This document shows positions 3,694 through 20,227 of a DNA stretch of 23,764 nt, piece by piece (the first letter of the stretch is position 1; every line of letters begins with the position of its first letter). The stretch is from a virus. Both the position numbers and the translations under genes were made by a program. The stretch is taken from positions 1 to 23,764 of the IMG/VR virus record IMGVR_UViG_3300032223_001267. One strand, written 5' to 3'. The notes under the pieces were generated by a model. That model saw nothing but the letters and a program-made list of their open reading frames with translations. It had not been told where the DNA came from and made no database searches.

Positions 3694-4170
3694 ATGGCCT
3701 ACAAATTTAACATTCCCACCCTTCGCTATCCGTCACCCGGCGCGGGGGAATACATCGCAGAAGTTAAAACCGTTACGGGGAAAAACCGCGACGGGGAAAA
3801 ACTTATTTCGCGCAACGGCGACCCAAAATTGTCCCTTGGCCTTCTGCTAGTGGGCAAAGACGGCTTGCTTTACGAGATGAGCGAATTTGTCACGCTTCCC
3901 ACGTTAGACGACGAGGGGAACCCCGTACAGGATACGGGCGTCTACTTGCTCCGCAGGCTTTCGGAGATCCTCCGGGCGCTCGGGCACGATATGTCAGCGG
4001 GCGAATCGTTTGAAATCAACTCTGCCGCGTTTCTCGGGAGAACCGCGAAAATCACCATTGGCATCGGGCCTGAAGTGAATGGGAAAAGTTATCCACAGAT
4101 TAAACTCTGGGAACTCAGCCCGCGCGCAGCTCAAGCAAGCGGGCAAAGAGACGACGAGATTCCGTTTTAA
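3694..4170 (+). CDS. SSB-like protein with acidic C-terminal tip
   Basis: The protein has 158 aa and starts three bases after the previous stop. The last residues, QRDDEIPF, match the acidic hydrophobic tip (DDDIPF type) by which single-stranded DNA-binding proteins recruit partner enzymes. The rest is beta-rich (GEYIAEVKTVTGKNRDG, GRTAKITIGIG) and resembles the DUF669-type phage proteins that stand in for SSB in such operons. Its place between the RecT-like protein and the helicase agrees. Expected role: coating single-stranded DNA during replication and recombination. Single-strand binding itself is inferred from tail and context. Confidence 0.7.
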   Translation: MAYKFNIPTLRYPSPGAGEYIAEVKTVTGKNRDGEKLISRNGDPKLSLGLLLVGKDGLLYEMSEFVTLPTLDDEGNPVQDTGVYLLRRLSEILRALGHDMSAGESFEINSAAFLGRTAKITIGIGPEVNGKSYPQIKLWELSPRAAQASGQRDDEIPF

Positions 4171-4209
4171 CTGCAGGAGGGGCGCGCATTCCGATCACGC
4201 GCAAAATTT

Positions 4210-5565
4210 ATGATTCTCAGAGATTATCAGCAAAGCGCGGTCGATAAAATCCGCGCAGCATACGCAAACGGGTTCAAGCGCCCGTTATTAGTCGCACCGA
4301 CCGGGGCAGGGAAAACAGTCATTTTTTGCTACATCGCGCAGGGTGCAGCGGCACGCGGGAACCGTGTCACGATTTTAGTCCACAGGCAGGAGCTCGTTGA
4401 TCAGACCTCGCGTTCCCTTGATGCTTACGGCGTCCCCCACGGGGTGATTGCAGGCGGACGCACCGATTCACGGGCGCATCTCGTACAGGTTGCCAGTGTG
4501 CAGACTCTGGCGCGGCGATTGCATAAATACGAACCGCCCCAGCTTGTCATCGTAGACGAAGCACACCACGCCATCGCGGGGACGTGGCGAACGGTTTTAG
4601 ACCATTACGCTGACGCGCACGTTCTAGGGGTCACGGCGACTCCGCAACGATTGGATGGAAAAGGGCTCGGTTCCGTGTTCGACAAAATGATCATGGGGCC
4701 AAAGGTTGGCGAATTGATCAACCAGGGTTTTCTGAGTCGCCCCATTTATTGGAGCAAGCCGCTGATGGACGCATCTCAAGCGCGCATCACGATGGGCGAT
4801 TACGCCATCCAAGATCTCGATGCCATGCTTACCAATGCAGTCATGGGAGACGCGGTCGTTGAATACAAACGGCGCGCCGATGGGCTCCCTGCGATTGCGT
4901 TTTGCCCTTCGATTTTAAAAGCTCAAGCGGTTGCCACTGCATTTCGGGCGGCAGGGTTTAACTGGGCAACGATTGATGGCACTTTAGACAAAGGCACCCG
5001 GCGCGATTTAGTTGAGCAACTCGGGGACGGGCGACTGCACGGGCTATCAGCCTGCGAGATTGTTTCCGAGGGGTTTGACCTTCCAGTGGTCACGGCGGCG
5101 ATTTTACTCAGGCCGACAGCATCCCTTGCGATGCACCTTCAACAGGTCGGGCGAGTGCTGCGGATTCACGCAAATAAAGAGAGGGCCATTATCATCGATC
5201 ACGCAGGCAACCTCCACAAACACGGCGCGGCAGAAGATGAGCGGGAATGGTCGTTGAAGACTCGGAAAAAGAAAAAAGGCAAACCCGTGGCCATGATGAA
5301 AGAGTGCCCGCAATGCTATTGTAGCGTGCCACTTGCGGCTATTTTCTGTCCAGAATGTGAACATGAGTTTAAAGCGAAAGAACGGGAATCTAACGAGGTC
5401 GAAGGAGATTTAGTTGAATTTCGCGCGGGAACAGATAGTCTTGCGGCGCTGATGGCAGGGGCGTCTACGTTTACTGATTTTCAGCGAATTGCAAAAATGA
5501 AGGGATACAAGCCGGGATGGGCTTGGCACCAATGGAGGAAACCAAAATTCAGTTACAATTTATGA
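4210..5565 (+). CDS. DEAH superfamily-2 helicase with C-terminal zinc ribbon
   Basis: The 451-aa protein carries an N-terminal LRDYQQSAVDKI Q-like motif, Walker A APTGAGKT (29-36), DEAH (116-119), VTATP (141-145) and the arginine-finger motif QQVGRVLRI (about 311-319), so both RecA-like domains are complete. A basic linker (TRKKKKGK) leads to a four-Cys zinc ribbon, CPQC...CPEC (Cys366, 369, 380, 383). Phage helicases of this layout, like UvsW or restriction-type helicases, unwind or remodel branched DNA during replication and recombination. The leader holds GGAGGGG about 30 bases before the ATG, too far to be a normal ribosome site. It ends in an ATGA overlap with a small gene. Confidence 0.85.
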   Translation: MILRDYQQSAVDKIRAAYANGFKRPLLVAPTGAGKTVIFCYIAQGAAARGNRVTILVHRQELVDQTSRSLDAYGVPHGVIAGGRTDSRAHLVQVASVQTLARRLHKYEPPQLVIVDEAHHAIAGTWRTVLDHYADAHVLGVTATPQRLDGKGLGSVFDKMIMGPKVGELINQGFLSRPIYWSKPLMDASQARITMGDYAIQDLDAMLTNAVMGDAVVEYKRRADGLPAIAFCPSILKAQAVATAFRAAGFNWATIDGTLDKGTRRDLVEQLGDGRLHGLSACEIVSEGFDLPVVTAAILLRPTASLAMHLQQVGRVLRIHANKERAIIIDHAGNLHKHGAAEDEREWSLKTRKKKKGKPVAMMKECPQCYCSVPLAAIFCPECEHEFKAKERESNEVEGDLVEFRAGTDSLAALMAGASTFTDFQRIAKMKGYKPGWAWHQWRKPKFSYNL

Positions 5566-10228: not shown

Positions 10229-10267
<39 letters not shown>

Positions 10268-10293
10268 TATATATATTTATATGAGTATATGAG

Positions 10294-10999: not shown

Positions 11000-11809
11000 A
11001 TGAGTAAATCAAAAAACCACACTTACCAAATTGAACAGGTAGACATTCAGAAACTGATTCCCTACGCGAACAACGCAAAACTACATTCTGAAAAACAGGT
11101 TTCTCAAATCGCTTCATCTATCCGGGAGTTCGGCTTTAACAACCCGGTGCTGATTGATTCAGAAAATGGAATCATCGCCGGGCATGGCCGGGTTCTTGCA
11201 GCCCGGAAACTTGACCTCGAACAAGTGCCGTGCATTCGCCTTGTTCACTTAACTGACAATCAACGCAAGGCATACATCCTTGCAGACAACCGACTTGCGG
11301 AAACGGGCGGAGGCTGGGATGAGGAAATATTGAAACTTGAAATCAAGGCAATCGAGTGGTCTGATTTAGAGGAGATTGGCATTGATGATTTTGAATTTTC
11401 AGAAATAGAGTTTGGAGAATCCGAAGAGAGTTCAGAAAAAACAAACAACCCTTATACAGCAAAAATTGAAACCCCGGTTTATCAAGTCACAGGAGAAACC
11501 CCGGACGTTTCGGATTTGATGAATCTCGAAAAATACAATGTTTTGCTTCAAGCGATTAGCAAATCTGCTGTTAGTAGCCAGCAAAAAGAATTTTTGAAAT
11601 TTGCTGCTGCTAGGCATATTGTTTTCAATTATCAACAGATTGCCGAATTTTACGCACACGCTGACAAAGAGCTTCAGCAACTGATGGAGGACTCAGCTCT
11701 TGTTATTGTGGATTTTAACAAGGCTATTGAAAAAGGCTTCGTGAAACTGACAGACTCAATCGCAGAGCAGTTTGGCGTTGATTTCCCAACGGAAGAAGAT
11801 GATGAATAA
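11000..11809 (+). CDS. ParB-like protein with a separate C-terminal phage domain
   Basis: The 269-aa protein has an N-terminal ParB/sulfiredoxin-type domain (about 10-125): IQKLIPYANNAKLHSEKQV, then IIAGHGRVLAARKL with the GHGR motif at 61-64, and LTDNQRKAYILADNRLAE. After an acidic linker (140-165) a second domain begins near 175; its RHIVFNYQQIAEFYAHADKE and SALVIVDFNKAIEKGFVKL are, as I recall, a conserved phage region. ParB-like domains bind DNA and hydrolyse CTP, or act as nucleases; phage relatives are linked to DNA modification and packaging regions. The gene is AT-rich and overlaps the glycosyltransferase gene by 8 bases. Confidence 0.75.
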   Translation: MSKSKNHTYQIEQVDIQKLIPYANNAKLHSEKQVSQIASSIREFGFNNPVLIDSENGIIAGHGRVLAARKLDLEQVPCIRLVHLTDNQRKAYILADNRLAETGGGWDEEILKLEIKAIEWSDLEEIGIDDFEFSEIEFGESEESSEKTNNPYTAKIETPVYQVTGETPDVSDLMNLEKYNVLLQAISKSAVSSQQKEFLKFAAARHIVFNYQQIAEFYAHADKELQQLMEDSALVIVDFNKAIEKGFVKLTDSIAEQFGVDFPTEEDDE

Positions 11810-12656
11810 TTTTTGCGTATTCATTTTGTCTCACGGCCGAGCAGACAATGTAGTCACATATCAAACATTGCGAAACCGAGGTTATACGGGACGCATTGTT
11901 GTGATTATTGACAATGAAGACAAACAGGCAGCGAAATACAAAAACAAATACGGAGACGAAGTTTATGTTTTTGATAAAGCTGCAATTGCAAAAACAGTAG
12001 ATAACGGCGACAATTTCAATAATTTGCGAACAACCACTCATGTTCGTAATGCAATTTTTGAAACTGCAAAACAAATGGGGATAGAATCCTTTGTGATGCT
12101 GGATGACGACTATGTGGATTTTCGATACAAATTTTCAAGCGACCACAAATACGGGGATTTTTTGGTCAAAAAAAATCTCGACCGCATTTTTCAGTTTACT
12201 GTCAATTATTTGAAATCATGTGAAAAATTGAGTTGTATAGCATATTCGCAAGGAGGTGATTTTATGGGTGGCGCAAATGGAATTTATGCAAAAAAAATTC
12301 GCACAAAGAGAAAAATCATGAACAGTTTTTTCTGTCTGACTGACAGGCCGTTCAAATTCATTTCGAGACTAAACGAAGACGTCAATACGTATCTTTCCTT
12401 AGGAGCACGTGGTGTGTTGTTTTTGACAATCAATCAGTTTGCTTTGAATCAAAAACAAACCCAAACAAATAAAGGTGGAATGTCGGACGCATACCTTGAA
12501 GGAGGCACTTATATGAAATCATTTTACTCTGTGATGTATGCACCAAGCTGTACACGAGTTATGACAATTGGTGCCGTGCATCCTCGATTGCATCACAAAA
12601 TCAATTGGAAATACGCAGCACCTTATGTGGTGTCTGAAAATGTGAAAAAGAAATGA
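11802..12656 (+). CDS. Predicted TET-associated-type (DNA) glycosyltransferase
   Basis: The 284-aa protein has the signature of a GT-A-fold glycosyltransferase: VFILSHGRADN (SHGR 10-13), RIVVIIDNEDKQAAKY near 31, TTHVRNAIFETAKQMG near 78 and FVMLDDDYVDF with Asp101-103 as metal-binding DxD. This pattern matches TAGT proteins, found in phages beside TET/JBP dioxygenases and thought to glycosylate hydroxylated bases. ATGs at 11799 and 11802 are adjacent; I use the second, 8 bases after GGA. The gene is AT-rich (19 G/C of 60 in 11941-12000). No base hydroxylase is in this window. An alternative substrate, such as a protein or surface glycan, is possible. Confidence 0.65.
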   Translation: MNNFCVFILSHGRADNVVTYQTLRNRGYTGRIVVIIDNEDKQAAKYKNKYGDEVYVFDKAAIAKTVDNGDNFNNLRTTTHVRNAIFETAKQMGIESFVMLDDDYVDFRYKFSSDHKYGDFLVKKNLDRIFQFTVNYLKSCEKLSCIAYSQGGDFMGGANGIYAKKIRTKRKIMNSFFCLTDRPFKFISRLNEDVNTYLSLGARGVLFLTINQFALNQKQTQTNKGGMSDAYLEGGTYMKSFYSVMYAPSCTRVMTIGAVHPRLHHKINWKYAAPYVVSENVKKK

Positions 12657-14960: not shown

Positions 14961-14992
14961 GTTTGATTCGCGGTTTTAATGGAACATACCTT

Positions 14993-15029
14993 AACGCCTC
15001 TCGCTCGGGATTACCTGAGGGGAGGCGTT
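14993..15029 (+). other. Stem-loop before the gpW-like gene (composite element, copy 1)
   Basis: Perfect 8-bp arms AACGCCTC (14993-15000) and GAGGCGTT (15022-15029) enclose a second stem, CTCGGG/CCTGAG with loop ATTA. There is no T-run, so termination is doubtful. One base later comes TTGCTTCACG (15031-15040), then 14 bases and the ATG at 15055. The same layout recurs at 17652-17714. Confidence 0.65.
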
Positions 15030-15054
15030 ATTGCTTCACGGGCGGCCTAATAAC

Positions 15055-15330
15055 ATGACACCCGGCATTCGCCTTCTCGTCGAAGTCCTCCTCACCCGCG
15101 ATATGGCGGAGCTTCGGACAATTCGCGAAGGCGCATTTACGCTGGCGACAAATAAAGGACAGGGCACGCTTCTTTCCTCAAGCGTCAACGGGTCGTCATT
15201 TTCCTTTTCCCTCCCCGGCGCTGCAACGTTGACCCCGCTTCAGTTGAGTGCGATTGCTCAACTCGCCATCGATCACAAACTCGCTGGCTTTTGTCGGCCT
15301 ACGACTAAGACGACTGTCCGCTTCATCTAG
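15055..15330 (+). CDS. gpW-like head-tail joining protein (by position)
   Basis: A 91-aa protein between large terminase and portal, exactly where lambda gpW stands. It starts at MTPGIRLLVEVLLTRD. A helical N-terminus (LLVEVLLTRDMAELRTIREG) and a beta-turn-rich middle (TLLSSSVNGSSFSFSLPG) followed by a helix resemble gpW length and layout. A TTG 24 bases earlier is in frame. Motif evidence is weak, so position carries most of the call. Confidence 0.5.
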   Translation: MTPGIRLLVEVLLTRDMAELRTIREGAFTLATNKGQGTLLSSSVNGSSFSFSLPGAATLTPLQLSAIAQLAIDHKLAGFCRPTTKTTVRFI

Positions 15331-15332
15331 CC

Positions 15333-16808
15333 ATGCTCTCAAAACTCATCAACGGCGTCTCGAAGTTGCTCAAACCGAAAAGCGAGTACACACGCCCGCA
15401 AGATCAGAGGCTCATTGAGGCCGGATGGTGGGCGCAGAAACCCTATTGGGTGACGCACGCGCGCCCGATGATTAAGGAGGTTACACCTTCCGAGCATCGT
15501 GTTTTGACGAGCGCGGCAAACCGAATTTATTGGAATTATGGCCCCGTGCAGGCGGGCATTGACGCGAAAGGCACCTATGCAGTGGGCCGCGCGTTTCGTC
15601 CTGTATTTGCGGGCAAGGACAAAGAATGGGGCAAGCAAGCGGAGGAGTGGCTCGATAACTGGCAAAATGTGGCGTTCATCGACGGCGTCGACTGGACAAC
15701 GGGGCTCTGGCGGATGTCGGTCGCCGTGGATCGCGACGGCGATCAGGGGTTGCTTTTGACTGAAACGAAAGCGGGCTACCCGCAGCTTCAGTCAATCCCT
15801 TGGCACGCTATCGGGCCGCGTAAGGCTTCCGAGTTTATCGAGGACGGCCCTTACAAAGGACTCCGGCAACACCTCGGAGTGGCGATCAATTCGCAGGGTC
15901 GTCCCGTCGGCTACCACATCGTGGGCGCGACCGAGGAGCAGGATCAATGGGTGTCAGCCACTAGTTTGATGTTGGTGCGGGATCACCCTAACGTGGACTT
16001 TTACCGTGGGCTATCGTCCCTCACAACCGGGATTATGGACCTCCGCGCCGCGTTTGAAATCGGGCGCAACATCAAGCAGGCCGCGCAGCTCGCCTCGACT
16101 CTCGGGCTGATCGTCCATAACGAAATGGGGATGGCGGATCCGCTCGACCAGGCTTTCGCTTACCCTGATGTCCCGCCTCCGGGTCAGTCTGGGCTTCGCG
16201 TTGAAGAGCGGATGGGCGGCACGATTCAGTATTTCCGCGCGGGCGCTCAGGAGAAACTTGAACAGCTTAAAAATGAAATCCCTACAGAAGCAACTGACCG
16301 TCTTGTTGAGCGTCTCATTCGTCAATCTCTCCTCGGTGCTGGACTTCCAGTGGAGTGGTTCTGGGAGAATAACAATGGGGGCGCAGATGTTCGTGCTACG
16401 GTAGAAAAGGTAAACCGTATCGTGAAAGATCGTCAGGACGTGCTCCGTATGAACGGAAGGCGCGCCATTGGCTACGTGGTATCGAAAGCCATCAAGCTCG
16501 GGCAGCTCCCGCCGTACAAGGGCAACGATCCGGGCGGGTTCCTAAAATGGAGCTTTACGACGCCTCCCATTCTCACAGTAGATTCGGGTCGCGTGTCAGC
16601 GGCTCAACTCGACGCCTACCGCGCTGGGATGGTGAACATGACGGAGATCGCAGCCGAGGGCGGGAAGACTCTGGATCAGCATTTGGATGAACGCGAGGCC
16701 GAGATGATCAACATCCGTGAACGGTGCGCGCGCTCGGGGCTTCCATTCTCTGACTTTGTGCTTCAAACACCCAACGGCAACGTGGCGCAACCAATTCCCG
16801 CAAAATGA
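15333..16808 (+). CDS. Portal protein (lambda GpB family)
   Basis: The 491-aa protein starts three bases after the previous stop. Features include KSEYTRPQDQRLIEAG at the start, then WRMSVAVDRDGDQGLLLTET near 127, and VEWFWENNNGGADVRATVEKV near 345. These patterns fit the lambda portal family, which forms the dodecameric gate at one capsid vertex through which DNA enters and leaves. Order terminase-gpW-portal-S49 protease agrees with lambda. The stop overlaps the protease start by ATGA. Confidence 0.88.
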   Translation: MLSKLINGVSKLLKPKSEYTRPQDQRLIEAGWWAQKPYWVTHARPMIKEVTPSEHRVLTSAANRIYWNYGPVQAGIDAKGTYAVGRAFRPVFAGKDKEWGKQAEEWLDNWQNVAFIDGVDWTTGLWRMSVAVDRDGDQGLLLTETKAGYPQLQSIPWHAIGPRKASEFIEDGPYKGLRQHLGVAINSQGRPVGYHIVGATEEQDQWVSATSLMLVRDHPNVDFYRGLSSLTTGIMDLRAAFEIGRNIKQAAQLASTLGLIVHNEMGMADPLDQAFAYPDVPPPGQSGLRVEERMGGTIQYFRAGAQEKLEQLKNEIPTEATDRLVERLIRQSLLGAGLPVEWFWENNNGGADVRATVEKVNRIVKDRQDVLRMNGRRAIGYVVSKAIKLGQLPPYKGNDPGGFLKWSFTTPPILTVDSGRVSAAQLDAYRAGMVNMTEIAAEGGKTLDQHLDEREAEMINIRERCARSGLPFSDFVLQTPNGNVAQPIPAK

Positions 16809-17632
16809 AACACAAACGCTTTTCCCACATAATCGAGGCCGTTTACCACCGCCCGTGGTTTATCACGCCGGGCGGCTACCGTGCAGTGCGGCAGGTGGTC
16901 GATGCGCGTCTAGCTCGGGCCGAGATGCCTGACCTTAGCGAATACGAAGGATGTGAACGCGAGGAGATGACCATCGACGCGAACGGCATCGCGCACATTC
17001 ACGTTGAAGGGACCATGGCACGCGGCATTTCTGCCCTTGAGGCTATTTGCGGAGGTTTTGACTACGAATGGCTAGAGGCCGACCTTCAAGAAGTGCAGCG
17101 CGCGGGTGTCAAAGGCGTCTGGATTGAGTTTGACACTCCGGGCGGTGCGGTTGAAGGAAACTGTGAATGTGCAGATATATTGCAGGAGATTGCTAAACGC
17201 ACACCCATTGTGGCGTGGTCTGATGGCACCTGCGCGTCGGCTGGGTACAATCTTGCGGTGTCTTGCACAAAGCTTTATGGCTCGCAGTCCTCCACGTGGG
17301 GCAGCATTGGGACGATTATCCCGTGGTGCGATGAATCCGCCGCATGGCAAGAGCAAGGGATGAGCTGGGAGCCGATTACAAACGCTGAAGGCGTATTGAA
17401 GGGCGCGGGCATGGGTCCGTCACTCACGGCGGCGCAACGGGCTTCGCTTCAAGAATACGTTCAAGACGCTTTTGATCAATTCAAGGGCAACGTGCTACGC
17501 AATCGCAAAATCGCGGATGAAGCGATGCGTGGACAAGCGTTTTTTGCACCGCGCGCTCTCGCAAATAACCTCATCGACGGCATTTCCACAGAGCAGGCGG
17601 CCTATAATAAACTGCTTGCAATGGTGCGCTAA
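16805..17632 (+). CDS. S49 (SppA/gpC-type) capsid maturation protease
   Basis: The 275-aa protein has the S49 signature: HIHVEGTMARG near 66, VWIEFDTPGGAVEG (105-118), GTCASAGYNLAVSC with the nucleophile Ser145, and STWGSIGTIIP near 163. A lysine in EGVLKGAG (about 199) lies where the general-base lysine is expected, though not at the exact column. Lambda gpC homologues cleave themselves and scaffold during head maturation. It lacks the extra C-terminal scaffold part of lambda gpC; the coiled-coil protein downstream may fill that role. A strong terminator begins about 20 bases after the stop. Confidence 0.85.
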   Translation: MKHKRFSHIIEAVYHRPWFITPGGYRAVRQVVDARLARAEMPDLSEYEGCEREEMTIDANGIAHIHVEGTMARGISALEAICGGFDYEWLEADLQEVQRAGVKGVWIEFDTPGGAVEGNCECADILQEIAKRTPIVAWSDGTCASAGYNLAVSCTKLYGSQSSTWGSIGTIIPWCDESAAWQEQGMSWEPITNAEGVLKGAGMGPSLTAAQRASLQEYVQDAFDQFKGNVLRNRKIADEAMRGQAFFAPRALANNLIDGISTEQAAYNKLLAMVR

Positions 17633-17651
17633 ATAGGCTAGGCATTCAATC

Positions 17652-17689
17652 AGACCCTCGCTTGCTTTTTTTGCAGGCGGGGGTCTTTT
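17652..17689 (+). terminator. Intrinsic terminator with TTGCTTCACG element (composite element, copy 2)
   Basis: A 14-bp stem, AGACCCTCGCTTGC with GCAGGCGGGGGTCT (two G-T pairs), has a 7-T loop and is followed by TTTT. It resembles an intrinsic terminator placed between protease and coiled-coil genes, and may reduce transcription of the following genes or need antitermination. TTGCTTCACG follows one base after the stem (17688-17697), then 14 bases to the ATG at 17712, as in copy 1. Confidence 0.75.
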
Positions 17690-17711
17690 GCTTCACGCGG
17701 GGGCCATAGGT

Positions 17712-18110
17712 ATGGATACACCCGCAACCTTGGCCGACGCGCTCACGGCGCTGAATGCCGCTAATGTGCGCTCGACCGAACTCAATGCAGAGGTTGCGGC
17801 GCTGAATGAACTCCTCACGGAAGCAGGCCCCGCAGTTGCCGAGCGCAATCAGCTCCGCGCTGAACTCGACACGCTGAAAGCCAACAACGCCGACCTTTCC
17901 AAGCAACTGGCAGCGGTGGCCAGCGCAAGCAAAAGCGTGGACGACCAAGCCGCCGCCATTGTGGCAGCAGCGGGCCATGCTCCTCTGGATATTGCGCCCA
18001 ACCCGGACGCAGTCGCCAAGCCCCAGTCTTTGAGTGAAAAACTCGAAAATGTCAGTGACCCGATGGAACGCAGCCGCATCCGTGCTGAATTTCTCTCAAC
18101 CCTCAAATAA
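17712..18110 (+). CDS. Coiled-coil protein, candidate capsid scaffold
   Basis: A 132-aa protein starting at MDTPATLADAL; a TTG 24 bases upstream is in frame. Residues ~15-75 are a strong coiled coil (ELNAEVAALNELLTEAG, then RNQLRAELDTLKANNADLSK). The C-terminus (SDPMERSRIRAEF) is a charged helix. Lying between capsid protease and major capsid protein, it is likely an assembly scaffold or a head-associated protein. No specific family is recognised. Confidence 0.6.
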   Translation: MDTPATLADALTALNAANVRSTELNAEVAALNELLTEAGPAVAERNQLRAELDTLKANNADLSKQLAAVASASKSVDDQAAAIVAAAGHAPLDIAPNPDAVAKPQSLSEKLENVSDPMERSRIRAEFLSTLK

Positions 18111-18128
18111 CCAACCTTTTTTTAACTT

Positions 18129-19028
18129 ATGTCCAACTCCTTAGGTACTTTAAACAGCGCCCTGATTCTTCAGACGGCGCTTTCACTGGTCTTCACCAAA
18201 CGTCCTCTGCTCCAAGCAATTAGCAAGGATCTTGAACCCATGGGCGCAAAACAGGGGCAGACTGTTCTGACCCGTTTGAAGTCCATTCCCGCTGTCGTTA
18301 ACGACACCGAGGAACTTCCCAGCTTCAACACAACCGACGTGCCCGTCACGTTGTCCTACTCGAAGCGCGTGGGTGCGACGTTCACATCCGCGCAGCTCAA
18401 CAGTACGGCGCGTAATCTGATTGAGGAACTCGCTGAACCGATCGCCGTAGCGATGGCTACCAGCATCGTGGATTCAATCGGCGCGCTTTGGACCACGTCC
18501 AATTTCGCCAACGAAACCGTGGCTTCCGCTCCTTCGTACAACACGCTTGTCGAACTTCGTCAGCGGTTGATCGAGCGCGGTATTCACGGAGATCGTTATC
18601 TGAGCGTGAACGCTCCGACTTACGCGGCGCTTCTCGAAGATCCGTTGATCACCCGCCCTAACCGCTTTATGGCTGTCGGCACGGATATCATCCAGACCTC
18701 CGAAATCGCTGGCGTGGCTGGGTTCTCGAACATCTTCGAATATCCCGCGATCAACACCGCAAACCACATGACTGGTTTTGCTTGTACGCCCGAAGCGGTT
18801 GTCCTGGCTTCCCGCGCTCCGCAGGATCCGCGCGAAGCTTTCGGTGGCAACATTCCGTTTCCGGGCAACTTCGAAGTGCTCACGGATGTCGCCACTGGGT
18901 TCTCCGCCGCCGCTGTGGAATACATCAACCCACTGACGCTCGACGTCACGGTGTATTTGAAATGGATCTATGGCGTCGCCGTGGGCAACCCGCTCGCAGG
19001 TCAGCGTCTGGTCTATCAGGCCAACTAA
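18129..19028 (+). CDS. Major capsid protein
   Basis: The 299-aa protein starts at MSNSLGTLNSALILQTAL after a T-rich leader. Its size, the single-copy place after protease and coiled-coil genes, and the C-terminal sheet region (TGFSAAAVEYINPLTLDVTVYLKWIYGV) suit an HK97-fold coat protein. The N-terminal ~110 residues (VLTRLKSIPAVVNDTEELPSF, LSYSKRVGATFTSAQLN) resemble P22/coat-type N-arm and E-loop sequence. Its DNA has moderate GC. This is the most abundant virion protein expected. Family name within HK97 is uncertain. Confidence 0.8.
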   Translation: MSNSLGTLNSALILQTALSLVFTKRPLLQAISKDLEPMGAKQGQTVLTRLKSIPAVVNDTEELPSFNTTDVPVTLSYSKRVGATFTSAQLNSTARNLIEELAEPIAVAMATSIVDSIGALWTTSNFANETVASAPSYNTLVELRQRLIERGIHGDRYLSVNAPTYAALLEDPLITRPNRFMAVGTDIIQTSEIAGVAGFSNIFEYPAINTANHMTGFACTPEAVVLASRAPQDPREAFGGNIPFPGNFEVLTDVATGFSAAAVEYINPLTLDVTVYLKWIYGVAVGNPLAGQRLVYQAN

Positions 19029-19930: not shown

Positions 19931-20227
19931 ATGCCTACTTTCGGAGCATCAACTTTAGGAGGGACCGCCCCAAGCGGCTACCTTCAAGAATCCACAAAAG
20001 ACGTGACCGTCGAACTCGCCACAATTCGCGATGCGACAGGCCCCGTAAAGGTCGCGTCCGTCAAGCCGCGTTCCATCACGACCATCGTCTGCAAAACCAA
20101 AGGTGATGCCGGATTTGTCGCAACCACCGGGCTCGGATCGTTCACGAGTGCCGTGACCTCCGCAAAGGTTTCGCAGACTAATGACGACTATTCAACCGCA
20201 GAAGCAACCCTCACCACCTACGCCTAA
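19931..20227 (+). CDS. Small virion protein, paralog A
   Basis: A 98-aa protein starting at MPTFGASTLGGTAP. It is beta-rich, with no Cys besides one. Its end, TSAKVSQTNDDYSTAEATLTT, resembles TSCKTTTKNDDWQGWEISGTS in the next protein, and KTKGDAG resembles RGKGDNP. So A and B appear to be tandem paralogs. By position between tail terminator and chaperones, a tail tube or tube-associated role is likely, though 98 aa is short for a tube protein. Confidence 0.55.
   Translation: MPTFGASTLGGTAPSGYLQESTKDVTVELATIRDATGPVKVASVKPRSITTIVCKTKGDAGFVATTGLGSFTSAVTSAKVSQTNDDYSTAEATLTTYA

Follow-up and report, generated by a model that had tools for sequence, protein, structure and literature searches.

A hairpin and a conserved word ahead of late phage genes: candidate parts of a terminator and a late promoter core

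The window, i.e., the whole stretch of 23,764 nucleotides of viral DNA considered here, contains a late gene region in which profile searches identified the terminase large subunit, the portal, a ClpP-like head protease, and the major head protein. Two further genes of this region (Table 1) are each preceded by a composite element consisting of a hairpin, a single spacer nucleotide (A15030 in copy 1, T17687 in copy 2), and the decamer TTGCTTCACG. A sequence-only reading had described this arrangement, and the positions that it gave, the decamer common to both copies, the 1-nt spacing, and the distance to the ATG are exact to the base. The same reading located the copies at the two breaks of an otherwise coupled late operon, and the intergenic gaps at 14961-15054 and 17633-17711 are indeed the two widest between the terminase genes and the tape-measure gene. 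When both strands of the window are searched, the exact decamer is found at these two sites only; a candidate third copy upstream of the tail gene at 19931 was rejected, the sequence there being coding. The gene names in that reading fared less evenly. The 91-aa gene owes the name 'gpW-like' to gene order, as profile searches against Pfam, PHROGs, and PDB did not support gpW, whereas the gene called coiled-coil has sub-threshold scaffold and coiled-coil matches and, judged by its position, probably encodes a scaffold.

Table 1. Features at the two sites of the element (z, folding z-score of the 46 nt upstream of the decamer)
Feature	Position	Strand	Remarks
Hairpin 1	14993..15029	+	terminator-like; lies after terminase large subunit gene and before small pre-portal gene; stem AACGCCTC..GAGGCGTT; z = -6.2
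Decamer 1 TTGCTTCACG	15031..15040	+	family core TTCACG 15035-15040, 20 nt before ATG 15055
Small head gene, 91 aa, gpW position (name unproven)	15055..15330	+	first gene of unit with portal and ClpP-like protease
Portal	15333-16808	+	phrog_21
ClpP-like head protease	16805-17632	+	phrog_53
Hairpin 2	17652..17686	+	terminator-like, 14 pairs, then TTTTGCTT; z = -6.9
Decamer 2 TTGCTTCACG	17688..17697	+	family core TTCACG 17692-17697, 20 nt before ATG 17712
Coiled-coil gene, probably scaffolding protein, 132 aa	17712..18110	+	first gene of unit with major head protein
Major head protein	18129-19028	+	phrog_283

Elsewhere in the window, a triplet-repeat tract at ~10230-10280 translates into a serine run from one strand and, from the other, into a run of threonine/tyrosine. 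A TET-associated glycosyltransferase gene (PF20691, 5.5e-36) adjoins a gene with a ParB-like nuclease domain (11799-12656 and 11000-11809), the two being probable DNA hypermodification genes. Upstream of an early gene lies a repeated hairpin-like sequence, GAGGGGCGCG..ACGCGCA (~4170-4205), which is also present in the early regions of the relatives G001, G003, and G004.

Isolated-phage DNA gave no match. A search of all viral contigs for the exact DNA pattern of decamer plus flank returned 54 matches, essentially chance occurrences within coding regions and none with the element, and relatives were therefore sought via protein. Viral contigs yielded 22 loci by portal search, 8 by protease search, and 79 by profile search, these sets partly overlapping; where the gene order was intact, the sites were read directly. 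Twenty-two homologous copies from related phages, with portals 57-95% identical, were anchored on the ATG and compared. The hairpin region, at a mean of 0.11 bit per column, has no sequence conservation, whereas the invariant columns of the word (T-26 to T-23, G-22, T-20, and T-19) reach 1.3-1.9 bit. Folding upstream of the word is nevertheless strong in 20/22 copies (z -3.4 to -8.7), with hairpins that end 0-6 nt before the word; they have the GC-rich stem and immediate T-run of an intrinsic terminator, the T-run of copy 1 in the window being broken (TTATTGCTT). The remaining copies, L058c1 and L059c1, have no hairpin fold yet keep core and spacing, which makes hairpin and word separable. So selection appears to maintain 'some hairpin with a T-run' and, independently, the word with its distance to the ATG. 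That the two-copy element is due to chance is ruled out, as judged by this conservation in relatives. The T-run after the stem would also suit a simpler account in which only the hairpins matter, as intrinsic terminators of the ordinary kind, and the word does no more than extend the U-tract. This account is largely refuted by the hairpin-less copies that keep the word, and the conservation of non-T positions and of the ATG distance likewise speaks against it; we regard it as very improbable.

Within the near relatives the word varies by clade. All 12/12 copies from the clade of the window (clade A) and from L061 have GCTTCAC, unchanged or with one letter replaced, 22 nt, counted from the G, before the ATG, while L063-L068 carry GTTTACA/G 21-22 nt before the ATG at both sites. 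Over clades A, L061, and B the distance from the G to the ATG is 22 nt in 20/22 copies and 21 in two, that from the TTG being 24 nt, and 23 in two. In whole records of near relatives the decamer is almost confined to these two sites. The expectation in the sequence-only reading that decamer and spacing accompany the genes thus holds throughout clade A and L061; elsewhere the decamer gives way to GTTTACA or TTGACA, and some sites are lost. Since L062/L093 and L084-L087 retain the genes with no motif at site 2, the motif is not indispensable in the family. The alternative in that reading of an 8-codon leader starting at the TTG fails in several relatives: the TTG is TAG in L059 copy 1, in-frame stops occur in copy 2 of L063 and L064, and copy 2 of L066/L067 is out of frame. 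A second box, CATAGG, 7 nt after the core, occurs in clades A, B, and L124-131 and was rejected as a general feature. In nearly all phages both sites of one genome carry the same variant (CACG/CACG, CACA/CACA, TTTACG/TTTACG, or TTTACA/TTTACA), the only exceptions, L059 and L066, differing in the last letter. This sharing within a phage, combined with the differences between phages, suggests a trans factor that reads the word and co-evolves with it.

At site 1 of clade B (L063-L067), ~90 nt before the small pre-portal gene, a cloverleaf RNA replaces the simple hairpin. In the alignment of these loci 15/31 of its pairs are backed by two-sided (compensatory) changes, which indicates selection on RNA structure there; an assignment as tRNA or known RNA was rejected, neither ARAGORN nor Rfam giving a match. 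The cloverleaf and the position of the ATG inside a small hairpin at some sites would fit a post-transcriptional RNA element made of hairpin and word, acting as an endonuclease cut site, as 3′-end protection of the upstream mRNA, or as a translational operator. We consider such an element improbable: the hairpin is dispensable in L058 and L059, the stems have no common sequence or loop, and no Rfam family matches. Small hairpins between word and ATG were also rejected as a general feature, being found at only ~15% of sites at p<=0.05.

Across the wider family, aligned variants reduce the core to TTNACR, ~20 nt before the ATG, with TTCACG in the window and TTTACG, TTTACA, or TTGACA/G elsewhere; by this alignment, the decamer TTGCTTCACG is the local form of a wider signal. 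In the distant relatives G018 and G019, TTGACR lies 18-24 nt upstream of 16/44 late genes vs 0/44 other genes (Fisher P = 2.9e-6), a test that, both having been chosen as motif-rich, bears on late-versus-other placement and not on the frequency of the motif in the family. TTGAC is the most frequent 5-mer at that upstream position. The distance from core to ATG is usually 19-23 nt, with cases of 26, 28, and 29, and, for one tail gene, of 34-35. L088, a relative filed as a Flavobacteriales metagenome-assembled genome (MAG), has at least 5 genes with TTGACA 19-20 nt upstream; it is probably a phage contig binned into that MAG.

The pairing of hairpin and word extends to this wider family and is specific to late genes. 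A terminator scan of the window ranked copy 2 first among its terminator-like sites and left out copy 1 because of its broken T-run. A second scan showed that in the window and in G001, G002, G003, G018, and G019 the strongest late-region terminators are followed by the motif within 2-7 nt; in G004 the late terminator is followed by the variant TTCATG. The criteria of this second scan missed copy 1 of G002 and copy 1 of the window. Early terminators have no motif after them, a further point against an extended U-tract. In G019 the tape-measure gene (PF20155, 1.5e-19) is preceded by two opposite-strand genes, so that a forward promoter is expected in the 83-bp gap between them and the gene, where TTGACA lies at 18431. 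The opposite-strand pair itself (L211 3117-4471, minus strand; G019 17013-18370), a DUF6602 gene (1.5e-14) and a gene for a protein with a sub-threshold RHIM-like motif inside the late operon, possibly represents inserted defence or moron genes. In G018, a 234-aa opposite-strand ORF with no family support stands upstream of the motif-bearing first head gene. Judged by gene arrangement, motif sites after terminators and opposite-strand genes are places where promoters would be expected.

The account that we favor, with a probability of about 0.5, is that each copy joins the intrinsic terminator of one late unit to a late promoter core that is specific to the phage and yields a near-leaderless mRNA. 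Each copy would then mark the point where one late transcription unit gives way to the next. Hairpin and T-run would act as intrinsic terminator, or as a 3′-end-forming structure, for the upstream unit, and the word would provide, at the DNA level, the recognition core for a factor that the phage encodes or modifies. Initiation of transcription between core and ATG would give a leader of ~0-15 nt devoid of a Shine-Dalgarno sequence; the transcript must include the ATG, since the N-termini of the downstream proteins are conserved from the ATG methionine. The variable distance from core to ATG in the wider family fits a promoter with a short leader. A sigma-70 promoter is a poor match. If the word were read as a -35 element (TTGCTT-17-TATG), the -10 element would fall on the start codon and transcription would start inside the gene, whose N-terminus is conserved from that methionine, and this reading is therefore excluded. 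Over 58 sites no column beyond the core is conserved, hence no -10 element, and the hairpin region of the 22 copies has no conserved sigma-70 hexamers. As to the factor, PF00940 (single-subunit RNA polymerase) had no match in 14 records, several of them incomplete, and none in the control genomes either, while matches to sigma-4-type helix-turn-helix domains were sub-threshold only. Against a promoter stand the strong terminators without motif in G015 and G016, and genes downstream of the inverted ones could be reached by simple read-through.

The rigid ATG spacing in the clades of the window also counts against a promoter, as it resembles that of a translation signal. In the main rival explanation, the ribosome or a phage protein binds the word in the late mRNA as a start signal for translation that is not of the Shine-Dalgarno type, and the hairpin serves as a leaky terminator or as a structure blocking coupling from the upstream gene. 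Beyond this spacing, most genes here have no Shine-Dalgarno site, the TGA of TTGACA is the stop codon of the upstream gene in many relatives, as in termination-reinitiation, and at some sites a small hairpin separates word and ATG. However, a late-only distribution would need a late-specific factor, the spacing in the wider family spans 19-35 nt, the word has no complementarity to the anti-Shine-Dalgarno CCUCC, and the sites head units after terminators and opposite-strand genes. Nor do the site sequences of the window and its relatives contain a purine-rich complement of CCUCC 5-9 nt before the ATG. We judge a translation signal unlikely, while the tight spacing in the clades of the window and the scarcity of Shine-Dalgarno sites keep it a serious competitor. 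The sequence-only reading had proposed a cis element for translational control, antitermination, or RNA processing. A conserved element does head two late units, and translational control is possible without being the best fit, whereas antitermination at the adjacent hairpin is unlikely since the word sits downstream of it. An antitermination site of the nut/boxA type could draw on what we take to be a loose resemblance of GCTTTACG to boxA and on a hairpin-then-box order presumably like that in rrn leaders; yet the box would sit after the terminator that it must defeat, and the family form TTGACA is unlike boxA, which leaves this the least credible of the alternatives.

The host of this phage family is probably a member of the Verrucomicrobiota, a view based on the only described relative, Verrucomicrobia phage P8625, whose portal is 25.6% identical. 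In one Opitutaceae plasmid (n=1; 36 annotated starts in the first 50 kb) no such word was found 20 nt before genes, a weak hint that the signal is not a general one of the host. To our knowledge, transcription and translation signals are almost unknown for phages of uncultured, largely non-Shine-Dalgarno bacteria. Hairpin and word together look like a real, undescribed late-gene start signal, no description of TTNACR in this role having been found in the literature searched. With its clear core and spacing, such a late-only start signal can serve to mark late units and true start codons throughout this large phage family, and the variants typical of each clade offer a way to search for the trans factor that reads it. 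More tentatively, and with a somewhat lower probability than the promoter account itself, late genes throughout an uncultured phage family, probably of Verrucomicrobiota, may start with TTNACR ~20 nt before the ATG, a signal that a co-evolving phage factor would read independently of sigma-70 hexamers or a Shine-Dalgarno site and that is paired with terminators, so that each late block would be a separate near-leaderless unit.

Several known systems share features with this element. Intrinsic (Rho-independent) terminators between phage modules have the same GC-rich stem, short loop, and T-run; here, in contrast, what follows the structure is fixed, namely a conserved word and, within ~25 nt, a start codon, and one clade B site has a cloverleaf. 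The late promoters of bacteriophage T4, with the core TATAAATA, are phage late promoters read by a phage factor. They resemble the present sites in their short core, their late-only use, and their several copies on the late strand, but the core here is TTNACR and the corresponding factor would be a putative one. Phage P8625 (L176) has three late genes, at 5448, 10772, and 15594, with TTGACA-17-TATNNG-7-ATG, sites that would yield leaderless mRNAs; a dyad GTATCM-N7-GGATAC accompanies two of them and a weaker form the third. TTGACA thus precedes late genes in P8625 as well, including the gene before the portal, but there it lies 36 nt away, is followed at 17-nt spacing by a -10-like hexamer, and comes with the dyad GTATCC-N7-GGATAC; the P8625 genome paper does not discuss promoters or terminators. 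The nearest analogue is found in cluster K mycobacteriophages, in which SAS words precede start codons and about half of them have an upstream inverted repeat (ESAS) (PMC3203893). The SAS word, GGGATAGGAGCCC, lies 3-9 bp from the start, is purine-rich and partly Shine-Dalgarno-like, and occurs mostly outside structural genes (PMC3203893); later work described putative SigA-like promoters in ESAS and left the role of SAS open (PMC11373665; PMC12699233). The present element is not a member of SAS/ESAS, as its word, the distance of the word from the start, and the class of genes it precedes are all different, and its hairpin is free to vary in sequence: TTNACR at 20 nt is not Shine-Dalgarno-like and is confined to late structural genes, no SigA-like promoter is seen, and the inverted repeats share no sequence, in contrast to those of ESAS, which are imperfect, 17 bp long, and built on a common consensus. 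What both have in common is a short conserved word near many start codons, specific to a phage group and with a role that may belong to either transcription or translation, and an inverted repeat directly upstream, which in SAS accompanies about half of the words.
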